DNA of 58,491 nucleotides from a virus: the IMG/VR virus record IMGVR_UViG_3300027659_000039, positions 1 through 58,491 of that record; one strand, written 5' to 3'. The notes beneath the pieces were generated by a model. That model was given only the letters and a program-made list of their open reading frames with translations, had not been told where the DNA came from and searched no databases. Positions 33,702 to 44,388 of this stretch are shown here, one piece after another. Made by a program: the position numbers and the translations under genes. Numbering within the stretch: position 1 is the first letter of the stretch; the number at the start of each line of letters is the position of its first letter.

Positions 33702-34907
33702 ATGCCGCGCTTATCACTTTATAAACCAGAAAAGGGTGCTGATTTCCGATTTCTTGATCGTGTTATAAACGAACAATTTCAAGTTGGCGGAACTGATATT
33801 TTTATACACAAATATCTTGGCCCTGTAAATCCCCAGGAGGGGACTGCTAGTCCGTCTGTTCCTACAAATGACGGTACGATACCGGAATTAGGAATACAAG
33901 ACCTGTTGTTTATGGAAAATCGAGACAGGCATTATTCCCCTGATGTTTATCAGTTACGCGGTATCTATACCATGCAAGATATAGATTTTAATCTTACACA
34001 GTTCGGAATATTTTTACAAAATGACAACATAATGATCACATTCCATCTAAGGGGTACTGTTGATTCATTAGGTCGTAAACTAATGGCGGGGGATGTATTA
34101 GAATTACCGCATCTTAAAGATGAATATGCGTTAGATGATGCTATGGTGGCATTAAAACGATTCTATGTTGTAACTGATGTTACTCGTGCCGCAACAGGAT
34201 TTAGTCAAACTTGGTATCCTCACTTACTAAGAGCAAAGTGTACGCCGTTAGTAGATAGTCAAGAATTTAAAGAAATTTTAGATGCTGATGCAGGTGATGG
34301 CAGCAGTTCATTAAGGGATGTCCTTAGTACCTACAATAAGAGTATTCAAATTAACCAAGCTATTATAGCGCAGGCAGAAGCAGATAGTCCTACTAGCGGA
34401 TTTGACACTAAGAATTTCTTTGTTCTTCCGCTACGAGAAGACGGCAATGTTGACATTGTCGACACCACTTCATTAGATGCTGATGCTAGCACAGAAAATC
34501 AAGTTATGGATGCTAGTGTAGTATTACATAGCCCAAATAAAGATTATTATGTCGGATACTTAACAGGTGACGCTGTCCCTCCAAACGGAGCTCCGTATAC
34601 GTTTGATACCGCATTTCCTTCAAACCCCCTAAACGGGCAATTTCATTTACGAACTGATTTTTTTCCAAATAGATTGTTTAGGTGGGACGGAGTTCGTTGG
34701 ATTAAATTTGAAGATAATGTTCGAATGACTCTTAATAATACAGGCAATGAGGATACTGCAAACGGTGCTCATTATGCAGGTAAAGCAGTTAGACAAACAC
34801 AAAAAGGTACATTTATTAATAATGCATCTACTTCAACAGTTGCCGGCAAGGTAATTAAAGAAAAACAAGCCTTGAGTAAGGCATTAAGACCACAGGCAGA
34901 TAACTAA
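33702..34907 (+). CDS. gp14: neck protein, gp14-like
   Basis: 401 residues (T4 gp14 256). The first ~190 residues (FQVGGTDIFIHKYL, YTMQDIDFNLTQFGIFLQND, DVLELPHLKDEY, SQTWYPHLLRAKCTPLVDSQ) follow the gp14 pattern. The C-terminal half is an extension ending with LFRWDGVRWIKFEDN and a basic tail. Gp14 with gp13 forms the neck that accepts the tail. It is followed by gp15 with a one-base overlap, the T4 order 14-15. Confidence 0.75.
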   Translation: MPRLSLYKPEKGADFRFLDRVINEQFQVGGTDIFIHKYLGPVNPQEGTASPSVPTNDGTIPELGIQDLLFMENRDRHYSPDVYQLRGIYTMQDIDFNLTQFGIFLQNDNIMITFHLRGTVDSLGRKLMAGDVLELPHLKDEYALDDAMVALKRFYVVTDVTRAATGFSQTWYPHLLRAKCTPLVDSQEFKEILDADAGDGSSSLRDVLSTYNKSIQINQAIIAQAEADSPTSGFDTKNFFVLPLREDGNVDIVDTTSLDADASTENQVMDASVVLHSPNKDYYVGYLTGDAVPPNGAPYTFDTAFPSNPLNGQFHLRTDFFPNRLFRWDGVRWIKFEDNVRMTLNNTGNEDTANGAHYAGKAVRQTQKGTFINNASTSTVAGKVIKEKQALSKALRPQADN

Positions 34908-36286
34908 TGGCAGATTTTTTTTATGATGGTCAAGTACGACGATACTTGACACAATTTATGAGGTTAATGAGTAACTTCAGCTATAAGGATGCTAAAGGTA
35001 ATTTAGTAGAAGTTCCTGTTCGCTACGGTGATATGAATCGACAGGTTGCGTCTATTATGAAAAAGAATAGTGAAAATATTATTCAGAGCGCACCATTTAT
35101 TGCCTGTTATATTAAAGACATGCAGTTTGATAGAGATCGATTACAAGATCCAACATTTGTTAGTAAGGTTCAAATAAGAGAACGAGCATATGATGACCAG
35201 GGTAATGAATATCTTAATACGCAAGGAGCTAACTATACCGTAGAAAGAATGATGCCAACTCCCTACCTGGCTACTTTTTCTGCCGATATATGGACCACTA
35301 ACACAGAACAAAAATTACAACTGTGGGAGCAAATTGTTGTATTGTTTAATCCTAGTTTAGAAATACAAACTACAGACAACTATATAGATTGGACCAGTCT
35401 CAGCGTTGTTGAACTAACGGGACAGCAGTTTGAAAGTAGAACAATTCCTCAAGGATTAGAGAGCGATATATCTATTTGTAATTTAAGTTTTTCAGCACCA
35501 ATATGGATTACTCCACCAGCTAAGGTAAAGCAGTTAGGTATTATTACAAAAATTATTACTAATTTACATACTGATCAGCCGGGCACAGTAGCATCAGGAT
35601 CTTATAAAGATATGGGACTAACAGATTTGTTTGCCGGTAGAGTTGCAGATAGTAAGACAGTTGTTTCTCCGGGAAATTATTGCCTATTAGTCATTAACAA
35701 CACCGCAACCTTATTACCATTTAAAGACGGTAATTCAGATGGCATTACTAGTGCATCCGAAATTGCTAATAAAGGGAACTGGAGAAAATTGTTAGATTTA
35801 TATCCTGGCGAATTTAAAGCAGGACTAAGTCAAATACGCCTTATGAAAGTAGACGGCAATGAGGTTGTTTCGTATGTTAGTTTAAATCCAACTGACGACT
35901 CAACAATGGTAATGAACATTGACTCAGATACAATTCCCACCAATACCATAATAGATGGTAGCGGTACAATAGATGCAATTATCAATCCAACAACCTTTAA
36001 TCCATTATCATCTGTCGCCGGTGTTAGATATTTAATATTAGAAGATATTGTAGACGGGGCAGATGCGTGGAGAAATACAGATAATTCTCCATTTATAGCA
36101 TCGGCTAATGATATTGTAAAATGGGACGGCGCATTGTGGACAATAATATTCAATTCAGTTAACGTCACTGATCTCACTTATATAATTAATTCATATACAG
36201 GAATACAGTACAAGTGGGACGGGGAACAATGGACAAAGACATTCGAGGGAGTGTATGATCCGGGCGCTTGGCGTTTAATTTTATGA
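34907..36286 (+). CDS. gp15: tail terminator / sheath stabiliser, gp15-like
   Basis: 459 residues; T4 gp15 has 272. The N-terminal ~230 residues (FFYDGQVRRYLTQFMRLMSN, VPVRYGDMNRQ, YLATFSADIWTTN, FSAPIWITPPAK) match gp15, which caps the tail and joins it to the head. Another ~230 residues follow with two copies of a Trp-Asp-Gly module (VKWDGALWTIIF, YKWDGEQWTKTF), also present once in gp14. Its TGA overlaps the Nudix start by four bases. Confidence 0.82.
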   Translation: MADFFYDGQVRRYLTQFMRLMSNFSYKDAKGNLVEVPVRYGDMNRQVASIMKKNSENIIQSAPFIACYIKDMQFDRDRLQDPTFVSKVQIRERAYDDQGNEYLNTQGANYTVERMMPTPYLATFSADIWTTNTEQKLQLWEQIVVLFNPSLEIQTTDNYIDWTSLSVVELTGQQFESRTIPQGLESDISICNLSFSAPIWITPPAKVKQLGIITKIITNLHTDQPGTVASGSYKDMGLTDLFAGRVADSKTVVSPGNYCLLVINNTATLLPFKDGNSDGITSASEIANKGNWRKLLDLYPGEFKAGLSQIRLMKVDGNEVVSYVSLNPTDDSTMVMNIDSDTIPTNTIIDGSGTIDAIINPTTFNPLSSVAGVRYLILEDIVDGADAWRNTDNSPFIASANDIVKWDGALWTIIFNSVNVTDLTYIINSYTGIQYKWDGEQWTKTFEGVYDPGAWRLIL

Positions 36287-36708
36287 CAGAAATAGTTTGT
36301 AGTGGCGGTTTGTTTTTAGCTAAAGACACTAAAAGGTTTTTATTTTTGTTAAGGACAAAAGGAAAAACAGCAGGTACCTGGGGACTAGTTGGTGGAAAGA
36401 AGGAACCAGATGATCATACACCGTACGATACATTAAAAAGAGAAGTAAGTGAGGAAGTTGGAAAAGTTCCAGCAATTAAAAAAATTATTCCCTTAGAACT
36501 TTTTATTAGTAATGATAAACAGTTTCATTATAACACCTATGTGTTATTAGTAGAAAAAGAATTCATTCCTACATTAAATGAGGAACATGCCGGCTACGCC
36601 TGGTGCGATTTAAATCAATGGCCTAAACCCCTGCATCAAGGGGTGAAAACCAGCCTAAGTAATAAGTCTATTCGAGGTAAAATAGAAATACTATTAGAAC
36701 TGGTTTAA
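36283..36708 (+). CDS. Nudix hydrolase
   Basis: 141 residues from the ATG at 36283 (ATGA overlap with gp15). The Nudix box is GGKKEPDDHTPYDTLKREVS followed by EEVGK, with the REVSEEVG core intact. The family cleaves nucleoside diphosphates linked to another group, such as oxidised dNTPs, NAD or capped RNA. The substrate cannot be told. Coupling to a tail gene implies late expression. Confidence 0.88.
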   Translation: MTEIVCSGGLFLAKDTKRFLFLLRTKGKTAGTWGLVGGKKEPDDHTPYDTLKREVSEEVGKVPAIKKIIPLELFISNDKQFHYNTYVLLVEKEFIPTLNEEHAGYAWCDLNQWPKPLHQGVKTSLSNKSIRGKIEILLELV

Positions 36709-37075: not shown

Positions 37076-37300
37076 TTAGTCTTTACCAGTAACAATTACG
37101 GCTACTTTATCAACCCAAACAAGTCGTCCATGACAGGCAATATTCCATTTTGTTTCGCCGTATTCATGAGTACATTCTGTAAAAGTTTCGCCAACTAACC
37201 TAACATCAGTGGCCAAATGCTCTACACCGTTTTCAAATATTCGCCAAACTAAATCAGACCCGTTGTGTTTGGTATTGAATCTAATGTGGTATTTGTTCAC
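37076..37300 (-). CDS. small protein at the end of the sugar-modification operon
   Basis: 74 residues, beta-rich with aromatic and His residues (KYHIRFNTKHNGSDLVWRIF, KWNIACHGRLVW). I recall similar short proteins in T4-like cyanophages, annotated hypothetical. Its ATG overlaps the upstream stop by four bases, so it belongs to the operon at 37297-45323. Function unknown. Confidence 0.65.
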   Translation of the reverse strand: MNKYHIRFNTKHNGSDLVWRIFENGVEHLATDVRLVGETFTECTHEYGETKWNIACHGRLVWVDKVAVIVTGKD

Positions 37301-38091
37301 TTCAATCCCAATTCCTTGCGGATTTTTGTAGCACTAATATCTGTTACTGTATCATCAAACGTTTCTTCGCCTGCTGTATAACCCACGCCTCTGCCCCAGC
37401 CGATGTGTACAATGTTAGGAACAACTTGTATTTCGTATTGGCCTTGGTACAATGGATCTAAATCACGTTTGATAAAATTCTTAACCTTTTCTACTTCAAA
37501 TGGATTACTGCCTTGCCAGCCCTGTACGTCACGCACTTGAATAACAACTTGTCCAGTTTTTGCTAGGAGTCTTTCAAATAAGGCACGATGTCCGTCGTGC
37601 CATGGTTGCCAACGTCCCAGCATCTGTACTGTTTCTTTTTTCCAATCAAACGACGGTCTACGGCGATTATCATAAATGTGTGCAAATATAAACTCACTCC
37701 ATTTCTCAGCGTGTTGCTCTGTTATTCTAAAATCATATATTTCAGGCTCAATAAACATTTTATTAGTGTCGGCATATCGACCTTCACGAATAGTATCCAT
37801 CCAAATAGTCCAATCTGCTTTGAAGTTGTTACGCATTTCTATAAGAGGCGCAACGAAATCACAGATAACAAAATCCATATCTGTCATTGAATCTGCTAGA
37901 TCACGCATACGTTTACTTTGACGAATACGACCTTCATGACTAAAGTCCCAGTCATCATATTTTTTACGTACATCGTCAGCATTTAACCAACTTACTCGTT
38001 TTTTTTCATTTTGCAAATGCTCTAATAGATATTGTGCAAGATAAGTTTTTCCGGCACCAGGTAATCCCATAATTAAAATTCTTTGTGGCAT
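37297..38091 (-). CDS. APS-kinase-like / nucleotidyltransferase fusion
   Basis: 264 residues. The N-terminal half is a P-loop kinase with GLPGAGKT at 9-16, then NADDVRKKYDDWDFSHEGR and RQSKRMRDLAD, the pattern of adenylylsulfate (APS) kinase, which makes PAPS. The C-terminal half has GRWQPWHDGH (159-168, the HxGH site) and ends with ISATKIRKEL, the signature of cytidylyl- or adenylyltransferases. A fused kinase plus nucleotidyltransferase could activate sulfate or a sugar phosphate. The kinase substrate is not certain. AAAGGAG lies inside the upstream gene's last codons; a start at 38121 would be out of place. Confidence 0.75.
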   Translation of the reverse strand: MPQRILIMGLPGAGKTYLAQYLLEHLQNEKKRVSWLNADDVRKKYDDWDFSHEGRIRQSKRMRDLADSMTDMDFVICDFVAPLIEMRNNFKADWTIWMDTIREGRYADTNKMFIEPEIYDFRITEQHAEKWSEFIFAHIYDNRRRPSFDWKKETVQMLGRWQPWHDGHRALFERLLAKTGQVVIQVRDVQGWQGSNPFEVEKVKNFIKRDLDPLYQGQYEIQVVPNIVHIGWGRGVGYTAGEETFDDTVTDISATKIRKELGLK

Positions 38092-38092
38092 G

Positions 38093-39505
38093 TTATTCTC
38101 CTTTATACCAAAACCAAACATTGCTTTTTACGTGATATATTTTTGTTTCTATACCGCGTTCTTTTCTAAAATGTTCTACTGCTGCCTTCACTGGGGGTAA
38201 ATTCCAATCGTGGCCAGCAAATATTCCACCTGTTTTAACTTTACACCAATATTTACGCAAGTCTCGAGCTACGGCCGCGTAACTATGATCCCCGTCAATA
38301 AAAATGTAATCTAATTCTTCATTAGGAATTAAATCAGCTGCTTCCCAACTGTCTAATTCTATAAATTCTATTTTATCTTTATAAGGATCTAGCAACTGAT
38401 ATGCGTTAACTTTCCATCTATTAACCATTTCTTGAGTAACCTGCCCCCAATGATCCATATAGGGTTTATATGCATCTATTGCATAAACCTTACTGATAGA
38501 ATCGCTCATGTCAAAGAAATAACGCAAGGTAAAACCAAGACACACACCTAGTTCGCATCCTATTAAATTTCTTCCTAATTTTTCTACATAGGGAAGTAGT
38601 TCAGGAGCAGATACTTGATCCATCGGTACAGGAGTTTGTCTTGCTGTAAGCGGTTCAAGCCTAAAAGATTTTCTAATCAGATTGGTAAAATTATCTAAAT
38701 CGTCTTGATCTAATTGATACTTAACAATTACTTCTCGAGTATTGCCTATCTGCAGACATAAGTTCGCTAGGTCCTCGTTATATTTTTTAGAAAAATATTG
38801 AAAATAATCAGAGTTCCGTTGTTCTATAGATTTCTTATCTTCGTTACCATCCCAGGAACTTTTTCCATGAAAATGTAGAACATAACTATCGTTAGTATAT
38901 AGTGTTTTATATCCTAACTGTGCGGCACGAATTCTATAATCAACATCTTCGCCGCCGACTGGCTTAAATTCTTCATCAAATAACCCTACTGCTTGATAAA
39001 TGTTTCTAGGTATTCTAAACAAATAAAACGCTGTATGAAATCTTTCATAGAATCCAGAGTGTTGGTCTGTGTGAGCCACTGCTACACGACATAGCATTTC
39101 GTAATTATTGTCATATTCTTCCAAGGTCCAAGTGTTGGGAATTTCTGTGTAAGCATGTGTTTGATTACAACTGGGTAAACAAATAATATCATCTGCTTTT
39201 TCTAAACTTTCTCTCCATCCCGGCGTGAATATAATATCGTTATTCATCATAACAAAGTCTAGATCATACTCATTGGCTATCTTCATCATTTGATTTATGT
39301 TAGCCGCAAAACTTTGAGGTGTTTTGTTCTTAATAACATTTAACCAAGGATGGCTTACATCTGTCCAAACATTATCGTTATCAATTAGTGCAAATAGATC
39401 GTTCTCTTTCAGTTGAGTAGTACTAAAAAAACTGTTTAGTGCGTAAGGAGTAAAGTGTGTACTACCTGCACTGGTTATCATTCCAAATAAAGTACCGTTG
39501 CTCAT
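38093..39505 (-). CDS. glycosyltransferase (GT2-like) fused to a SAM methyltransferase
   Basis: 470 residues. The N-terminal ~250 residues are a GT-A glycosyltransferase-like domain (FVMMNNDIIFTPGW as the acidic metal site, VGGEDVDYRIRAAQLGYKT, SYVLHFHGKSS). The last ~170 residues are a class I methyltransferase (IGCELGVCLGFTLRYF, VYAIDAYKPY, DYIFIDGDHSYAAVARDL, GGIFAGHDW). Together they could add and then methylate a sugar. It overlaps the next upstream gene by four bases. Confidence 0.85.
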   Translation of the reverse strand: MSNGTLFGMITSAGSTHFTPYALNSFFSTTQLKENDLFALIDNDNVWTDVSHPWLNVIKNKTPQSFAANINQMMKIANEYDLDFVMMNNDIIFTPGWRESLEKADDIICLPSCNQTHAYTEIPNTWTLEEYDNNYEMLCRVAVAHTDQHSGFYERFHTAFYLFRIPRNIYQAVGLFDEEFKPVGGEDVDYRIRAAQLGYKTLYTNDSYVLHFHGKSSWDGNEDKKSIEQRNSDYFQYFSKKYNEDLANLCLQIGNTREVIVKYQLDQDDLDNFTNLIRKSFRLEPLTARQTPVPMDQVSAPELLPYVEKLGRNLIGCELGVCLGFTLRYFFDMSDSISKVYAIDAYKPYMDHWGQVTQEMVNRWKVNAYQLLDPYKDKIEFIELDSWEAADLIPNEELDYIFIDGDHSYAAVARDLRKYWCKVKTGGIFAGHDWNLPPVKAAVEHFRKERGIETKIYHVKSNVWFWYKGE

Positions 39506-40416
39506 TTTGTAATTGTATTAAAAAAGTTGCTCCACTCATTAGCCCTGCGTTCCCAAGACCAATAGTTATGATAATGATGTGATTGTGCAATTAACTGTTG
39601 CTGGTTGTCTTCATTCCAGTAGTTATTAATAGTTTTTTCTAGTTCTATTGCAAATCTTTCCGCTAAAACTTCCCTATTTGGGCCATGAGGAACGTATGTA
39701 GCCCAGTCATTGCATGTTTCAGGTAGTGCCCCTAGATTAGTTGTAAGTATTTGACAGCCGGCTGTTGCTGCTTCAATTGCAGATAGGCAACTAGTTTCTT
39801 CAAATGTGCTAGGATACGGAAATATATGTGCTTGTTGTACACACGCACGTACAATATCATTGGGCTGGTATTCGTGAAAGTTTACATTTTTTTGTGTGCG
39901 GGCATGATCAAACAACCAATCAAATTGCCCCTGTGTAATTTTTACAAAATTCTCGCCGTAAATCTTTGTACTAGAAAATACATCTAATTCTACATCATCA
40001 CGATCTAGTATCATTAACGATTTAAGTATTACATCTAGGCCACGCCATGGCGTACTAGTATACACTAATTTTAGTTTTCCTGTCTTTGACTTTTCTACAA
40101 ACGGAATAGGTTCTACAGCATTTCTTAACACAATACTTTTATAAGCAGGAACATTAAATTCTTGTTTAAATTTATTAAACTGCCAATGACTTACAAAGAT
40201 AAAATAATCAATTGCTTCAACAAATGTGGGGTCTTTCATGCCTACGCAGATTTCTTCATTAGTGTTTAGGTGTTGCCACACAACATTTATTTTATTGGGG
40301 TCAATTTGTTCGTGAAAACAAAAACTTAAAATTAAATTTATTCGATCACTCCACTCAGACCCAACATGTTTAAGCATGTTAAGATATAGTATCTCGCTGC
40401 CGCCCATTGGTTTCAT
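39502..40416 (-). CDS. glycosyltransferase, GT4-like
   Basis: 304 residues. It starts almost at the GGSE motif (residues 5-8), has STPWRGLDVILKSL (donor-domain start) near 120, and PSTFEETSCLSAIEAATAGC (the EX7E region) near 206. GT-B-fold transferase using a nucleotide sugar; acceptor unknown. The N-terminal domain is short for the family. ATGA overlap with the upstream gene. Confidence 0.85.
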   Translation of the reverse strand: MKPMGGSEILYLNMLKHVGSEWSDRINLILSFCFHEQIDPNKINVVWQHLNTNEEICVGMKDPTFVEAIDYFIFVSHWQFNKFKQEFNVPAYKSIVLRNAVEPIPFVEKSKTGKLKLVYTSTPWRGLDVILKSLMILDRDDVELDVFSSTKIYGENFVKITQGQFDWLFDHARTQKNVNFHEYQPNDIVRACVQQAHIFPYPSTFEETSCLSAIEAATAGCQILTTNLGALPETCNDWATYVPHGPNREVLAERFAIELEKTINNYWNEDNQQQLIAQSHHYHNYWSWERRANEWSNFFNTITK

Positions 40417-41069
40417 AGACTCTCCGCAAACTTCATTAGATTTTCGTATACTCGAACTTTGGGAAGCAACATTTTGTAGATGTGATTTTGTAATTTTTCT
40501 TGTGTTTTTTTACCTTTGCCGGTAAGAACAAGCACCGGAGTTGCTCCTGCTTTTTCAGCCATAACTAAATCTTCTAAACTGTCACCAACATAGGCCCCAC
40601 CTTTAATTTTTGCCCCAGGAATATTATTTTCAGCATGTTTAAAAAGACCTGGATTGGGCTTAGAAAACGGATCGTCTTTGCGACTAGATGTATTATACCA
40701 AATCCCATCAATGCTTGTACAACCTGCTTGTCCTAGTAGATTTAACATGTGTCGGTTACAGTTTTCTACTTCATCTATAGAAACTTTTTTATGACTTATA
40801 CTTGGTTGATCAAATAAGAAGGCAAGTTTATGACCTTTACTACGAATAATTGCAACAGCCTTAAATGCATCTTCAATGGGTATAAACTTATCTGGGCCGT
40901 TAATTATATCATCACATTCACAAACTACACCGTCTCTATCTAACGCAATAAGGTATTTGTCAAATATTGCAGGCATAGTTATAGCTTGTGAAATATTTGG
41001 TTGTACCTGCTGTTGCTGTTGAACAGACAGGTTGCTTTTCATATTTTTATCTACACTAAATCTTCCCAT
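40413..41069 (-). CDS. HAD phosphatase, GmhB-like
   Basis: 218 residues with a short Gln-rich N-terminus (SVQQQQQVQP), then ALDRDGVVCE (nucleophile motif near 42-51), KPNPGLF near 140, and YVGDSLEDLVMAEKAGATP near 160. This matches the HAD-IIIA group containing D-glycero-D-manno-heptose-1,7-bisphosphate phosphatase and histidinol phosphatase. In an operon with a GT9 (heptosyltransferase-type) gene, a heptose or sugar-bisphosphate phosphatase role fits best. The zinc-loop cysteines typical of GmhB are not clearly present. Confidence 0.78.
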   Translation of the reverse strand: MGRFSVDKNMKSNLSVQQQQQVQPNISQAITMPAIFDKYLIALDRDGVVCECDDIINGPDKFIPIEDAFKAVAIIRSKGHKLAFLFDQPSISHKKVSIDEVENCNRHMLNLLGQAGCTSIDGIWYNTSSRKDDPFSKPNPGLFKHAENNIPGAKIKGGAYVGDSLEDLVMAEKAGATPVLVLTGKGKKTQEKLQNHIYKMLLPKVRVYENLMKFAESL

Positions 41070-41072
41070 ATT

Positions 41073-41864
41073 TTACTCGTATAATTTTTTTATATCTTGA
41101 GATATTGACGGTTGTGTCTTATTCATATATCTATTAAGGTGATTACTTCCGTAGGATTTACTTACCGGAGGGGCTAACTGGCCTGGTTGACTGTTATTAG
41201 GATTTGTCCTACGTAACCAATCATCAAAATTTCCTGTATATTTTTTAAATCCGACATGATTGCAGGTAATACCAGTGTCTAGCCAAGTTGTATACCCTAA
41301 TTGTTTTAATTTTCTACACATTAAAATGTCTTCACTAATAATATCACCATTTTCTACAATGACATCAAATATCCATCGACGCTTTTTACCTTGTTCTTTT
41401 TCTTCATATACAGGACTAGCGTCCCATATTGCGTCAACCGCCTTACGACTTAACTTTAAAAATCCAGTGCCTAGTCCTTCTACTGCTAACAATCCCGTAA
41501 CAGGATCACGATCAGCATATGGTTGTAAAACTTTCCCTACATACATTTCTGTATCGCCTTTCTTAGGATAAGTCCCACCTACTACATCTACTGGATAATT
41601 TAACAATCTGTAAAAATGCTCGGGATTCCACTCAATGTCGGCATCGATAAAAATGATATCATCGCAATTCATTTCTCGAACTAGCGCAATAATATCGTTT
41701 CTTGCACGTTGTATTAGCGCATCGTAACTTAACCAGATAGGTAAAATTTCTACGTTCATCTGATCAGATAATTTAATTGTATTCACAAGGCTATGTGTAT
41801 ACCATACATCAACACTTCCGTCATAACACGGAGTACCTATTAACACTCGTCTTTTCTTTTGCAT
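41073..41864 (-). CDS. glycosyltransferase, GT2-like (GT-A fold)
   Basis: 263 residues from the ATG at 41864 (TAATG overlap with the sulfotransferase gene). RRVLIGTPCYDGSVDVWY at the start, RARNDIIALVREMNCDDIIF with the metal site IDADIEW, and GGTYPKKG. The second part has GTGFLKLSRKAVDAI and SEDILMCRKLKQLGYTTWLD, as in GT-A transferases. Substrate unknown. An in-frame GTG at 41876 is less likely. Confidence 0.82.
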   Translation of the reverse strand: MQKKRRVLIGTPCYDGSVDVWYTHSLVNTIKLSDQMNVEILPIWLSYDALIQRARNDIIALVREMNCDDIIFIDADIEWNPEHFYRLLNYPVDVVGGTYPKKGDTEMYVGKVLQPYADRDPVTGLLAVEGLGTGFLKLSRKAVDAIWDASPVYEEKEQGKKRRWIFDVIVENGDIISEDILMCRKLKQLGYTTWLDTGITCNHVGFKKYTGNFDDWLRRTNPNNSQPGQLAPPVSKSYGSNHLNRYMNKTQPSISQDIKKLYE

Positions 41865-42685
41865 TATTCTATCCACAACAGTTGTCTTTTAATATGGTCA
41901 AAGTCAAATTTCCAAAAACTCGAACTTACGTAATTTTCCCAGATATCTGATGGCAATATTGGTTTCCTCTGTTTAAATTCTACCTTCTTGCGAACTGTAT
42001 GTAAGCCCGTAATATTAGCGGCGTCATCAAATTCATCATAGCTGTCTTCAACATTGTTGAAGTCGTGTTCAAACCAAGGTTCGCCAATAAATTGGTAAAT
42101 TGTCTGCATTGTTTCTCTAGGGCGTTTACACAACGCTTCATAATCTACTACACACAACATATCTTTTTCATTACTGAATAGGCCTTGTTTTAAACAAGTT
42201 AGTGGTCCGGTAACATAGCCGCCGTTTCCCTCCATACTCATTAGACTATTACATCTCATATAGACATTAGACATATCCTGATGATTATATAATGCCTTTA
42301 TTGAGTAAGGATTTTTAGCATTTAATTGTTCAAAACTATCTAATATCCAAGGAACGTCTCTAATACATACAATTACTTTACTGTAGGGAAATAAATCTTT
42401 AACCATAGAAGTTTGTGCAGTCCAGGCCCGGTTCGTATTAAAACAAACTTCCGGTTTTCCTTCGTAGAAGTTAGCAAATAATCCTCTAATCAAACCTGCA
42501 CGTTTTTCTATTGGCACTGAAACTTCCATGCCTACTGCGCTGTGTGTTACCTGTAAGAGGTTTCTTGCATAGTCGTGTAATGGGTCACTAATATCTGCAC
42601 AGAATTTAGGATTTTGTTTTAGAATAGCACTGAGCAATGTTGACCCACTGCGTGGTAATCCTGATATAAAATGATATTTTTGCAT
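41864..42685 (-). CDS. PAPS-dependent sulfotransferase
   Basis: 273 residues. FISGLPRSGSTLLSAILKQN at the start is the 5'-phosphosulfate loop of sulfotransferases. VIVCIRDVPWILDSFEQ near 105-121 gives the 3'-phosphate site (Arg...Ser). The C-terminal part is helical. The family moves sulfate from PAPS to sugars, proteins or small molecules. The same operon holds an APS-kinase-like gene that could supply PAPS. One-base overlaps on both sides. A glycan substrate is inferred from the neighbours. Confidence 0.88.
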   Translation of the reverse strand: MQKYHFISGLPRSGSTLLSAILKQNPKFCADISDPLHDYARNLLQVTHSAVGMEVSVPIEKRAGLIRGLFANFYEGKPEVCFNTNRAWTAQTSMVKDLFPYSKVIVCIRDVPWILDSFEQLNAKNPYSIKALYNHQDMSNVYMRCNSLMSMEGNGGYVTGPLTCLKQGLFSNEKDMLCVVDYEALCKRPRETMQTIYQFIGEPWFEHDFNNVEDSYDEFDDAANITGLHTVRKKVEFKQRKPILPSDIWENYVSSSFWKFDFDHIKRQLLWIE

Positions 42686-44388
42686 TATTCTTTCACCAAT
42701 AACTTTCCTATATCTGGTAGATATAGATATTTTATATCAGATCCGATGATTGTGTTAACTGCATCTACTAACGTCTCTACTAACGGATCACCTGCTAGAT
42801 TGAAGCTGGTATTAAACACCATAGGTACACCTGTCTTTTTATAGAATGCTTCAATTAGACGATAATAAAATAAATTGTCTGCCTCATTAACAGTCTGAAC
42901 ACGACATGTTCCGTCTACGTGTGTAACACTAGGAACGTCTCCTATGCGTTTTGCCGACAGGTTAATGGCATACATCATAAAAGGACTAGACTTTAGTCCT
43001 CTCATTTCAAACCATTCGTCTGCATGTTCTTCCATAACGCTGGCTGCAAATGGTCGAAACCATTCGCGACCTTTAACACGATTTACAAAATCTTTGCCGT
43101 CGAGTCTGCGTGGATCAAATAAAATACTACGATTACCTAATGCTCTAGGCCCCCCTTCTGGACGACCATGAAATAACGAAACAATATTACCATTAACTAA
43201 TAGGTCAGCAACATCGTTAATATCCGCAGATTGCGTTTTTATTCCGCTTATTTGTTTTAGTATATTATCTAAAATACTGTAGTTTGGCGCGGCACCTAAA
43301 TAGATATGTTTTAATGGGTTCTTCGGAGCGGTGTTGTTATAAACATACCATCCAAGTTTAGCAAGTCCCATAGCAGTTCCACCGTCGTGACTGATAGGGT
43401 CTACATATAAATTAATATCTTTTAATCTATCTTTATAATAATAGTTTGCCACACAGTTTAATCCGTAGCCGCCTGCAATGACAACATTCTTAATACCTGT
43501 CGAGGCTACCGCATTTTCTATTAGACCACACACCATCTGTTGAGATTCTTGTTGAATTTTCCAAGCAAGATCTCGGTCGATATCTTTTACTTTAGAAAAG
43601 TTGTTGTGCCATTCTTTAGGTTCTTGTGTCCTTTGTAGTGCAGGGAATCTATTTTCATCTATGTTTGAGCCAGCAGGGTACATAGGTAATAGTAAGTTTT
43701 TATTCCCCTTACCTTCCACAAAGAAGTCTGGAATAGTTGCGTTGGCTTTTCCATAAGGTGCAAGCCCCATTGTTTTGCCTGCTTCAATATAACCAAATCC
43801 CAGATAGTGACTGACTGCTTCGTAGGCCTTGGTAATAGTAACAGAGTTATCAAACTCTTGTACACCATTATTAAAATAATCAGTACGACCATCCGAATAT
43901 CGTTTGTACAAGGGTTCAAAATTTACAGGATAAGAACATTTATAAACACTTTCGGTTTCGTATCCACCTACTGTGTTGCCTGTACCGTCTGGTCCGGTAG
44001 TAGTTGAATGAAAACTGCCAGCACCGTCTACTATAACGGCCAGTGCTTCATCAAATCCACTGTTATAAAATGCGCCTGCGGCATGACCTAAGTGATGCTG
44101 ATGCCCCATATTGGTAACTAAAACTTTTGGATTAAATTTACGAACCAATGCTGTATAAGCATCTTCCATAGTCCAGGGTAGTTTACTAAATTCCGGACTG
44201 GTACCGCCTAAAATAAGTTCATCTACGGGATAACTTTGTAAACACTCTAACATTGCTCGGAAAGGATTGCCATCGTATTTCATACGGCTGAGTCTTTCTT
44301 CTTCTGCATAGTAGACAACTTCGCCGTCTACAAGCAAACAAGCAGAACCGTTGTGTCCTGGATTAATGGCTAAAATGTTATATGGCAT
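42685..44388 (-). CDS. carbamoyltransferase (NodU/CmcH/TobZ family)
   Basis: 567 residues, the usual length. The N-terminal Kae1-like part has NPGHNGSACLLVDGEVVY and the metal-binding HQHHLGHAAGAF (about 97-108). The C-terminal YrdC-like part has PEGGPRALGNRSILFDPR, NRVKGREWFRPFAASV and VPMVFNTSFNLAGDPLVET. The family uses carbamoyl phosphate and ATP to put a carbamoyl group on a hydroxyl of a sugar or antibiotic. In this operon the target is probably a glycan. One-base overlaps with both neighbours. Confidence 0.93.
   Translation of the reverse strand: MPYNILAINPGHNGSACLLVDGEVVYYAEEERLSRMKYDGNPFRAMLECLQSYPVDELILGGTSPEFSKLPWTMEDAYTALVRKFNPKVLVTNMGHQHHLGHAAGAFYNSGFDEALAVIVDGAGSFHSTTTGPDGTGNTVGGYETESVYKCSYPVNFEPLYKRYSDGRTDYFNNGVQEFDNSVTITKAYEAVSHYLGFGYIEAGKTMGLAPYGKANATIPDFFVEGKGNKNLLLPMYPAGSNIDENRFPALQRTQEPKEWHNNFSKVKDIDRDLAWKIQQESQQMVCGLIENAVASTGIKNVVIAGGYGLNCVANYYYKDRLKDINLYVDPISHDGGTAMGLAKLGWYVYNNTAPKNPLKHIYLGAAPNYSILDNILKQISGIKTQSADINDVADLLVNGNIVSLFHGRPEGGPRALGNRSILFDPRRLDGKDFVNRVKGREWFRPFAASVMEEHADEWFEMRGLKSSPFMMYAINLSAKRIGDVPSVTHVDGTCRVQTVNEADNLFYYRLIEAFYKKTGVPMVFNTSFNLAGDPLVETLVDAVNTIIGSDIKYLYLPDIGKLLVKE

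Follow-up and report, generated by a model that had tools for sequence, protein, structure and literature searches.

A phage fusion of an APS-kinase-like domain and a compact NadM-like nucleotidyltransferase is linked to sulfotransferases and may generate PAPS

The stretch of DNA analysed here (58,491 nucleotides; hereafter the window) comes from IMG/VR as virus record IMGVR_UViG_3300027659_000039 and contains T4-like genes, among them the gp15 tail sheath stabiliser at 34907-36286. On the minus strand at 37297..38091 lies a single open frame of 264 residues plus stop, with the boundaries and the two-domain layout proposed in the first-pass annotation, that fuses a kinase to a nucleotidyltransferase and was assigned by its match to phrog_10255 (1e-46) and by family alignments. 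These alignments, together with a good ribosome-binding site (AAAGGAG; minus strand, 38098..38104 in plus-strand numbering), favour the start at 38091 over an alternative at 38121 that would give 274 residues. The APS-kinase-like P-loop kinase domain (residues 1-144; minus strand, 37660..38091) carries the motifs GLPGAGKT, NADDVR, DWDFS.EGR, FVAP and DTN, the first of which is the P-loop (residues 9-16; minus strand, 38044..38067), with G9, G14 and K15 invariant and L10, P11 and G12 conserved in at least 90% of members. The compact HxGH nucleotidyltransferase domain (residues 147-264; minus strand, 37300..37653) carries GRWQPWHDGH, NPF, PN, GRGVGY and ISATKIR. Within GRWQPWHDGH the HxGH site takes the form HDGH (residues 165-168; minus strand, 37588..37599), and the G, R, Q, P and both H are invariant, as are the I, S, T and R of ISATKIR (residues 252-258; minus strand, 37318..37338); both motifs had been read correctly in the first pass. 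The AlphaFold2 model has a mean pLDDT of 91.8.

The fusion gene belongs to a cluster on the minus strand that also contains a sulfotransferase (41864..42685; PF13469, 1.6e-15) and a NodU-like carbamoyltransferase (42685..44388; PF16861, 3.6e-57; phrog_1601, 2e-147). Glycan-type genes (38093..41876, minus strand) separate the sulfotransferase from the fusion gene, namely a glycosyltransferase-like/methyltransferase gene, a glycosyltransferase, an HAD phosphatase and a glycosyltransferase-like gene. The two genes, described in the first-pass annotation as adjacent, are thus ~3.8 kb apart in the window and not direct neighbours; their association holds at the level of the family, in many phages and some bacteria. 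Near the fusion gene there is also a Nudix hydrolase gene (36268-36708), which starts with TTG and overlaps the end of the gp15 gene. In phage Bhz60, a NADAR-annotated gene (L081:7565-8008) extends into the start of the fusion gene, and a gene of equal length occupies the same position in the related phages L084-L086. Considered as a sign of NAD metabolism, Nudix and NADAR genes are not conserved neighbours of the fusion family.

The match of the fusion protein to its family is far beyond chance: residues 3-262 align with positions 2-229 of the 230-position profile of phrog_10255, which is labelled 'kinase', with an E-value of 1e-46. The gene is widespread in phages from water: the first IMG/VR scan returned 513 relatives, and the family occupies more than 500 IMG/VR loci. 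Five cultured phages carry a member, at 37-39% identity. An alignment of 61 diverse family members contains 30 invariant columns.

The kinase half resembles APS kinase (CysC; PF01583, TIGR00455) more closely than any other family matched, both by sequence profile and by fold, as the first-pass annotation had suggested from its motifs. PF01583 matches with E=9e-12 (45.7 bits against a gathering score of 21.1), and when the family profile was compared with the PDB, APS kinases took the top 21 places, the best at 2e-14 to 2yvu. The modelled kinase fold superimposes on 7yq0 with a Z-score of 19.1 and an rmsd of 2.1 over 143 aligned residues; APS kinases and PAPS-synthetase/sulfurylase fusions make up all of the 30 best PDB entries (Z 19.1-15.9), followed by gluconate kinase at 15.1, in a ranking obtained by re-aligning the AlphaFold2 model to its Foldseek matches, which does not exclude families outside that list. 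The likeness extends over residues 1-144 and includes the P-loop, the Asp/Arg of the DGDxxR type and the FS..(D)R motif. An alignment with canonical CysC domains shows D39, R42 and F50, which belong to APS-kinase motifs, to be invariant, and R55 to be conserved in at least 90% of members; by APS kinase structures, these and related motif residues are presumably those that bind APS. The phage kinase differs from CysC in its fusion to a nucleotidyltransferase, in the Asn of DRxEN, which is Gln in most cases, in the replacement of the Ser of SISPY by Ala or Cys, and in a lid that is ~18 residues shorter and without KGLY...FTGI. One relative, L377, keeps the canonical DLGFS..DR.EN string (sequence DLGFSIEDRVEN). 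TIGR00455 (NCBIfam apsK) scores 35.5 bits, below its curated cut-off of 138.7, and the kinase model that ranks best for the most members is NCBIfam PRK05541 (61/61). Polynucleotide kinase, which the first-pass annotation had named as a match that would count against its reading, was rejected, with phrog_505 reaching only 0.03 and no such enzyme among the fold matches listed. APS is probably the substrate of the kinase half.

The identity of the nucleotidyltransferase half is less clear-cut. Pfam CTP_transf_like matches all 73 aligned members (best 1.4e-8; 0.006-0.013 for the window copy). The best sequence match is to NMN adenylyltransferase of the NadM type (7e-10; TIGR01527; 1f9a, 2qjt), with which the domain shares GRxQPxHxGH (GRFQPFHxGH in NadM), NPF and IS.T.IR motifs. 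TIGR01527 is likewise matched by 73/73 members, but at 24.4 bits against a curated cut-off of 181.2. By fold, the isolated model (pLDDT 88.9) ties between PPAT (Z 10.2) and NMNAT (Z 9.6). The phage domain is shorter than NadM: residues 74-108 of MJ0541, a stretch that we take to be the nicotinamide-site region of NadM, are left unmatched in the profile alignment. A closer match to NMN adenylyltransferase, also listed in the first pass as evidence against a PAPS synthase, is therefore present in sequence, while the fold is tied (Z ~9.5-10) and the segment of the nicotinamide region is missing. Because of that missing stretch, NAD synthesis is not favoured for this domain.

These similarities could be read as a reversed NadR, in which a riboside kinase would make NMN and the NadM-like domain would adenylylate it to NAD. 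Such a salvage role would fit the best matches of the nucleotidyltransferase, the breadth of the TIGR01527 hits, the NADAR-domain gene directly upstream in Bhz60 and the Nudix gene of the window. It is made improbable by the absence of the nicotinamide-site segment, by the TIGR01527 score of 24.4 against 181 and by a kinase that, among the fold matches listed, is like APS kinases and not riboside kinases, and it leaves the sulfotransferase linkage described below unexplained.

An ATP sulfurylase of the Sat family was also considered and rejected as the identity of the domain. PF01747 (ATP-sulfurylase) ranks second among Pfam matches by frequency, but it is weak and found in 13/73 members (best 6e-4), among which the window copy is not listed; the L438 copy scores 13.4 bits, below the gathering score of 24.3. 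Comparison of GR[W/F/Y]QPxHxGH with the sulfurylase motif QxRNPxHxxH places an aromatic residue (W/F/Y) at the position of the sulfate-binding Arg. Among the sequence and fold matches listed for the isolated domain there is no ATP sulfurylase, an absence that does not exclude that activity. Between the HxGH and ISAT motifs, all members have an invariant GRxVGY motif that sets them apart from NadM (GR[D/G]VGY; mostly GRDVGY, and GRGVGY in the window at residues 233-238, minus strand, 37378..37395, with G, R, V, G and Y invariant). From its sequence, this motif might parallel the GRDHAG of ATP sulfurylase, a resemblance that is suggestive only. We put sulfate as the substrate of the nucleotidyltransferase at slightly short of an even chance.

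The two halves also occur as separate genes. Among the genome contigs inspected, every SAR86 genome and the majority of SAR11 genomes encode a kinase of ~136 residues and a nucleotidyltransferase of ~124 residues as two genes, at 48-62% identity, usually adjacent and sometimes 2-5 kb from one another; the fused form is present in the Rhodospirillaceae L092 and L093. Because SAR11 and SAR86 have the same domains as separate, usually adjacent genes, the phage protein is a fusion of this bacterial gene pair, and the two activities therefore belong to one pathway. No sulfotransferase gene adjoins the pair in SAR11 and SAR86. The wider spacing of 2-5 kb is found in SAR11 L098, L100, L113, L115, L140, L154, L155 and L157; in L098, two large proteins, one of them beta-barrel-like, are encoded between the kinase and the nucleotidyltransferase. 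The SAR11 kinase is preceded there by a one-carbon or betaine-type operon (L098:502-8402) whose genes, named by eye, are BHMT-like, DMGDH-like, aminomethyltransferase-like, ureohydrolase-like, Rieske and creatinase-like; a functional tie and mere synteny are both possible.

The link of the fusion family to sulfotransferases is genuine and is seen in many phages and in some bacteria. Around 223 distinct viral loci, ORFs called by an N-terminal sulfotransferase motif numbered 20 at 0-1 kb from the family gene (4.7 per 100 kb), 12 at 1-3 kb, 1 at 3-4 kb and 0 at 4-6 kb; the difference between 0-1 kb and 3-6 kb (20 vs 1) gives a binomial p=2e-9, uncorrected for shared ancestry. The background density was 0.57 per 100 kb in gp15-seeded loci and 0 in carbamoyltransferase islands free of the kinase. 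The nearby ORFs fall into five sequence groups, of which the main one and two smaller ones are sulfotransferase-like by profile comparison. Among loci seeded by the carbamoyltransferase, 27 have both kinase and sulfotransferase, 53 have neither and none has only one, and on the carbamoyltransferase tree the two traits change together in 4/4 independent pairs; phage loci share ancestry, so that such counts overstate independence, and four pairs cannot reach p=0.05. Seeding with the sulfotransferase of the window recovered the kinase in 13/15 viral loci, and in one of the misses, L433, the record stops just past the sulfotransferase gene; virus records are often fragments. An unbiased gp15-seeded sample contained 2 loci with both genes, 4 with the kinase only, 3 with the sulfotransferase only and 71 with neither (p=0.043).

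If the family were instead a housekeeping or nucleotide-metabolism gene, its closeness to sulfotransferases would merely reflect shared genomic islands, and many members do lie in late, tail or nucleotide-metabolism regions without a sulfotransferase. This explanation is decidedly improbable, given how sharply sulfotransferase density drops away from the family gene, that several sulfotransferase groups take part, and that 53 carbamoyltransferase islands have neither gene.

Bacterial genomes provide further cases. In two Rhodospirillaceae, the fusion gene is ~3 kb from the only Sulfotransfer_3 match of the 5-Mb genome and adjoins a gene of the arylsulfotransferase family, and CysN-CysC is encoded elsewhere in the genome. 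Known arylsulfotransferases of this type do not use PAPS, so this neighbour indicates a context of sulfation only. The nucleotidyltransferase was found in 7/289 alphaproteobacterial genomes, at least 5 of which have Sulfotransfer_3, against 146/289 overall, a difference that is not significant. In one genome of this survey (G141), the only sulfotransferase is ~9 kb from the gene; in another genome, G121, a search close to the gene found no sulfotransferase related to those of the Rhodospirillaceae.

For many family members, the phage that carries them has no sulfotransferase that can be recognised: PF13469 over its cut-off is absent from 31/34 long family-bearing phage records, including all five cultured phages. 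Two clusters of proteins often encoded directly upstream, c73 and c78, showed no sulfotransferase identity by Pfam, PHROGs or profile comparison, nor did one c73 protein compared with the PDB, and both were left out of the distance counts. The c73 proteins (L300:5163-5996 and relatives), which have no Pfam match, contain a sulfotransferase-like NRSGST motif; of 23 copies measured, 12 have the c73 gene at 0-2 bp from the fusion gene. By this motif, c73 is possibly a new sulfotransferase family.

Distinct family ORFs from the sulfotransferase- or carbamoyltransferase-seeded loci comprise 19 fused proteins, 8 kinases only, 2 kinase-DUF2061 proteins (DUF2061 by Pfam for L438) and 1 nucleotidyltransferase only. 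Across these variants, the kinase is the part that always accompanies the sulfotransferase. No homologue of the nucleotidyltransferase was found in records of 194, 259 and 322 kb, though kinase and sulfotransferase are present; a kinase alone with a sulfotransferase in such large phage records is expected if host APS suffices. In two large phage records (L438:15218-15838 and L439:14844-15461), a DUF2061 membrane domain is fused to the kinase in place of the nucleotidyltransferase, and L438 has a separate nucleotidyltransferase gene just upstream of the kinase-DUF2061 gene. In three further loci (L177:5500-6393, L223:5034-5996 and L228:2-1018), a gene encodes a degenerate kinase domain preceded by an N-terminal domain of no assigned family; this gene is a short way upstream of the intact fusion gene, with which it overlaps in L177 and which it adjoins in L223. 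Tandem kinases occur at L457:12987-14354, where a 165-residue kinase with a more canonical DLGFS motif precedes a full fusion gene.

General models would name the kinase half cysC, and published work describes phage cysC along with cysH as genes of assimilation (PMC10914622, PMC9529941). On that basis, the protein could be an auxiliary CysC that raises the cysteine supply through PAPS and PAPS reductase. Yet PAPS reductase (CysH, PF01507) exceeds its cut-off in only 1/39 family-bearing records, and marginally so; the neighbours that cluster with the family are sulfotransferase and not reductase genes; and SAR11 has the gene pair without assimilatory sulfate reduction, while retaining cysC and cysQ (PMC5069961). 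A role in assimilation is accordingly very improbable. A PF01583 search of SAR11 genomes always recovers the kinase of the pair, with one further APS-kinase-like gene in each of G007 and G008, and since this kinase is always found, the SAR11 'cysC' is probably the kinase of the two-gene form. In the SAR86 genome G001, which has the pair and two sulfotransferases, no ATP sulfurylase, no CysN over its cut-off and no other APS kinase were found. In the portions seen, the papers that tie phage cysC to assimilation (PMC9529941, PMC10914622) mention neither a nucleotidyltransferase half nor a link to sulfotransferases; our comparison with them is by gene label.

A more serious rival is that the protein makes some other 3'-phosphorylated nucleotide donor, in which a nucleotide would be joined to a small phosphate- or amidate-bearing compound and then phosphorylated on its 3'-OH by the kinase, for decoration of phage-directed glycans. 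APS-kinase homologues can use other nucleotides, for Cj1415 is said to phosphorylate CDP-amidate in Campylobacter capsule synthesis, and the remodelled lid, the precedence of PRK05541 among kinase models and the frequent position of the gene among glycosyltransferase, epimerase and carbamoyltransferase genes are all in keeping with such a donor. The peak of sulfotransferases and their joint gain and loss with the kinase would be left unexplained by it, unless the sulfotransferase homologues transfer another group, and we regard it as unlikely.

Together, the kinase half and the sulfotransferase linkage lead us to read the protein as a compact PAPS-generating module, or PAPS synthase, that feeds sulfotransferases, to which we assign a probability of roughly 0.45. 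The C-terminal nucleotidyltransferase would adenylylate sulfate (ATP + sulfate -> APS + PPi), the N-terminal kinase would phosphorylate the 3'-OH of APS to give PAPS, and phage or host sulfotransferases would draw on PAPS for sulfation, the presumed target on the infected cell being a surface glycan, lipid or protein. Of the 'mini PAPS synthase' envisaged in the first pass, the kinase half and the tie to sulfotransferases have held up and the idea is still the best overall reading; the sulfurylase step is conjectural, and the nucleotidyltransferase is NadM-like, not Sat-family. That the kinase half is an APS-type kinase serving sulfation is likely in its own right.

The bifunctional PAPS synthetases (PAPSS1/2; Aquifex Sat-APS kinase) likewise combine the kinase with an adenylyltransferase of the HxGH superfamily and have a link to sulfotransferases, whereas the phage protein lacks a Sat domain, has a 118-residue NadM-like domain as its adenylyltransferase and measures 264 residues against 546-630 for the PDB chains. 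In NodP/NodQ-NodH systems, a dedicated sulfate-activation set, apart from the assimilatory one, serves a sulfotransferase; the phage cluster resembles them as a proposed sulfation-dedicated set and in its NodU-like carbamoyltransferase. It differs in that NodP/NodQ are CysD/CysN-CysC homologues and the phage nucleotidyltransferase is NadM-like.

The best reading of the module is that it serves sulfation rather than sulfate assimilation, unlike the usual reading of phage 'cysC'. Metagenome surveys commonly count phage 'cysC' as sulfate assimilation, and the fusion family points to sulfation. It also offers a role for the otherwise stranded cysC of SAR11. If the nucleotidyltransferase uses sulfate, it would represent a new origin of ATP sulfurylase activity within a minimal PAPS synthase. 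More tentatively, the 118-residue NadM-like domain might be a second, independently evolved ATP sulfurylase that, with the trimmed APS kinase, would form the smallest PAPS synthase known. Were this so, the two-gene form of SAR11 and SAR86 would make PAPS despite the lack of sulfate assimilation, and phages would carry the module to sulfate the surface of the infected cell. A sulfate-activation cassette that travels with sulfotransferase and glycan genes could alter cell-surface chemistry during infection.
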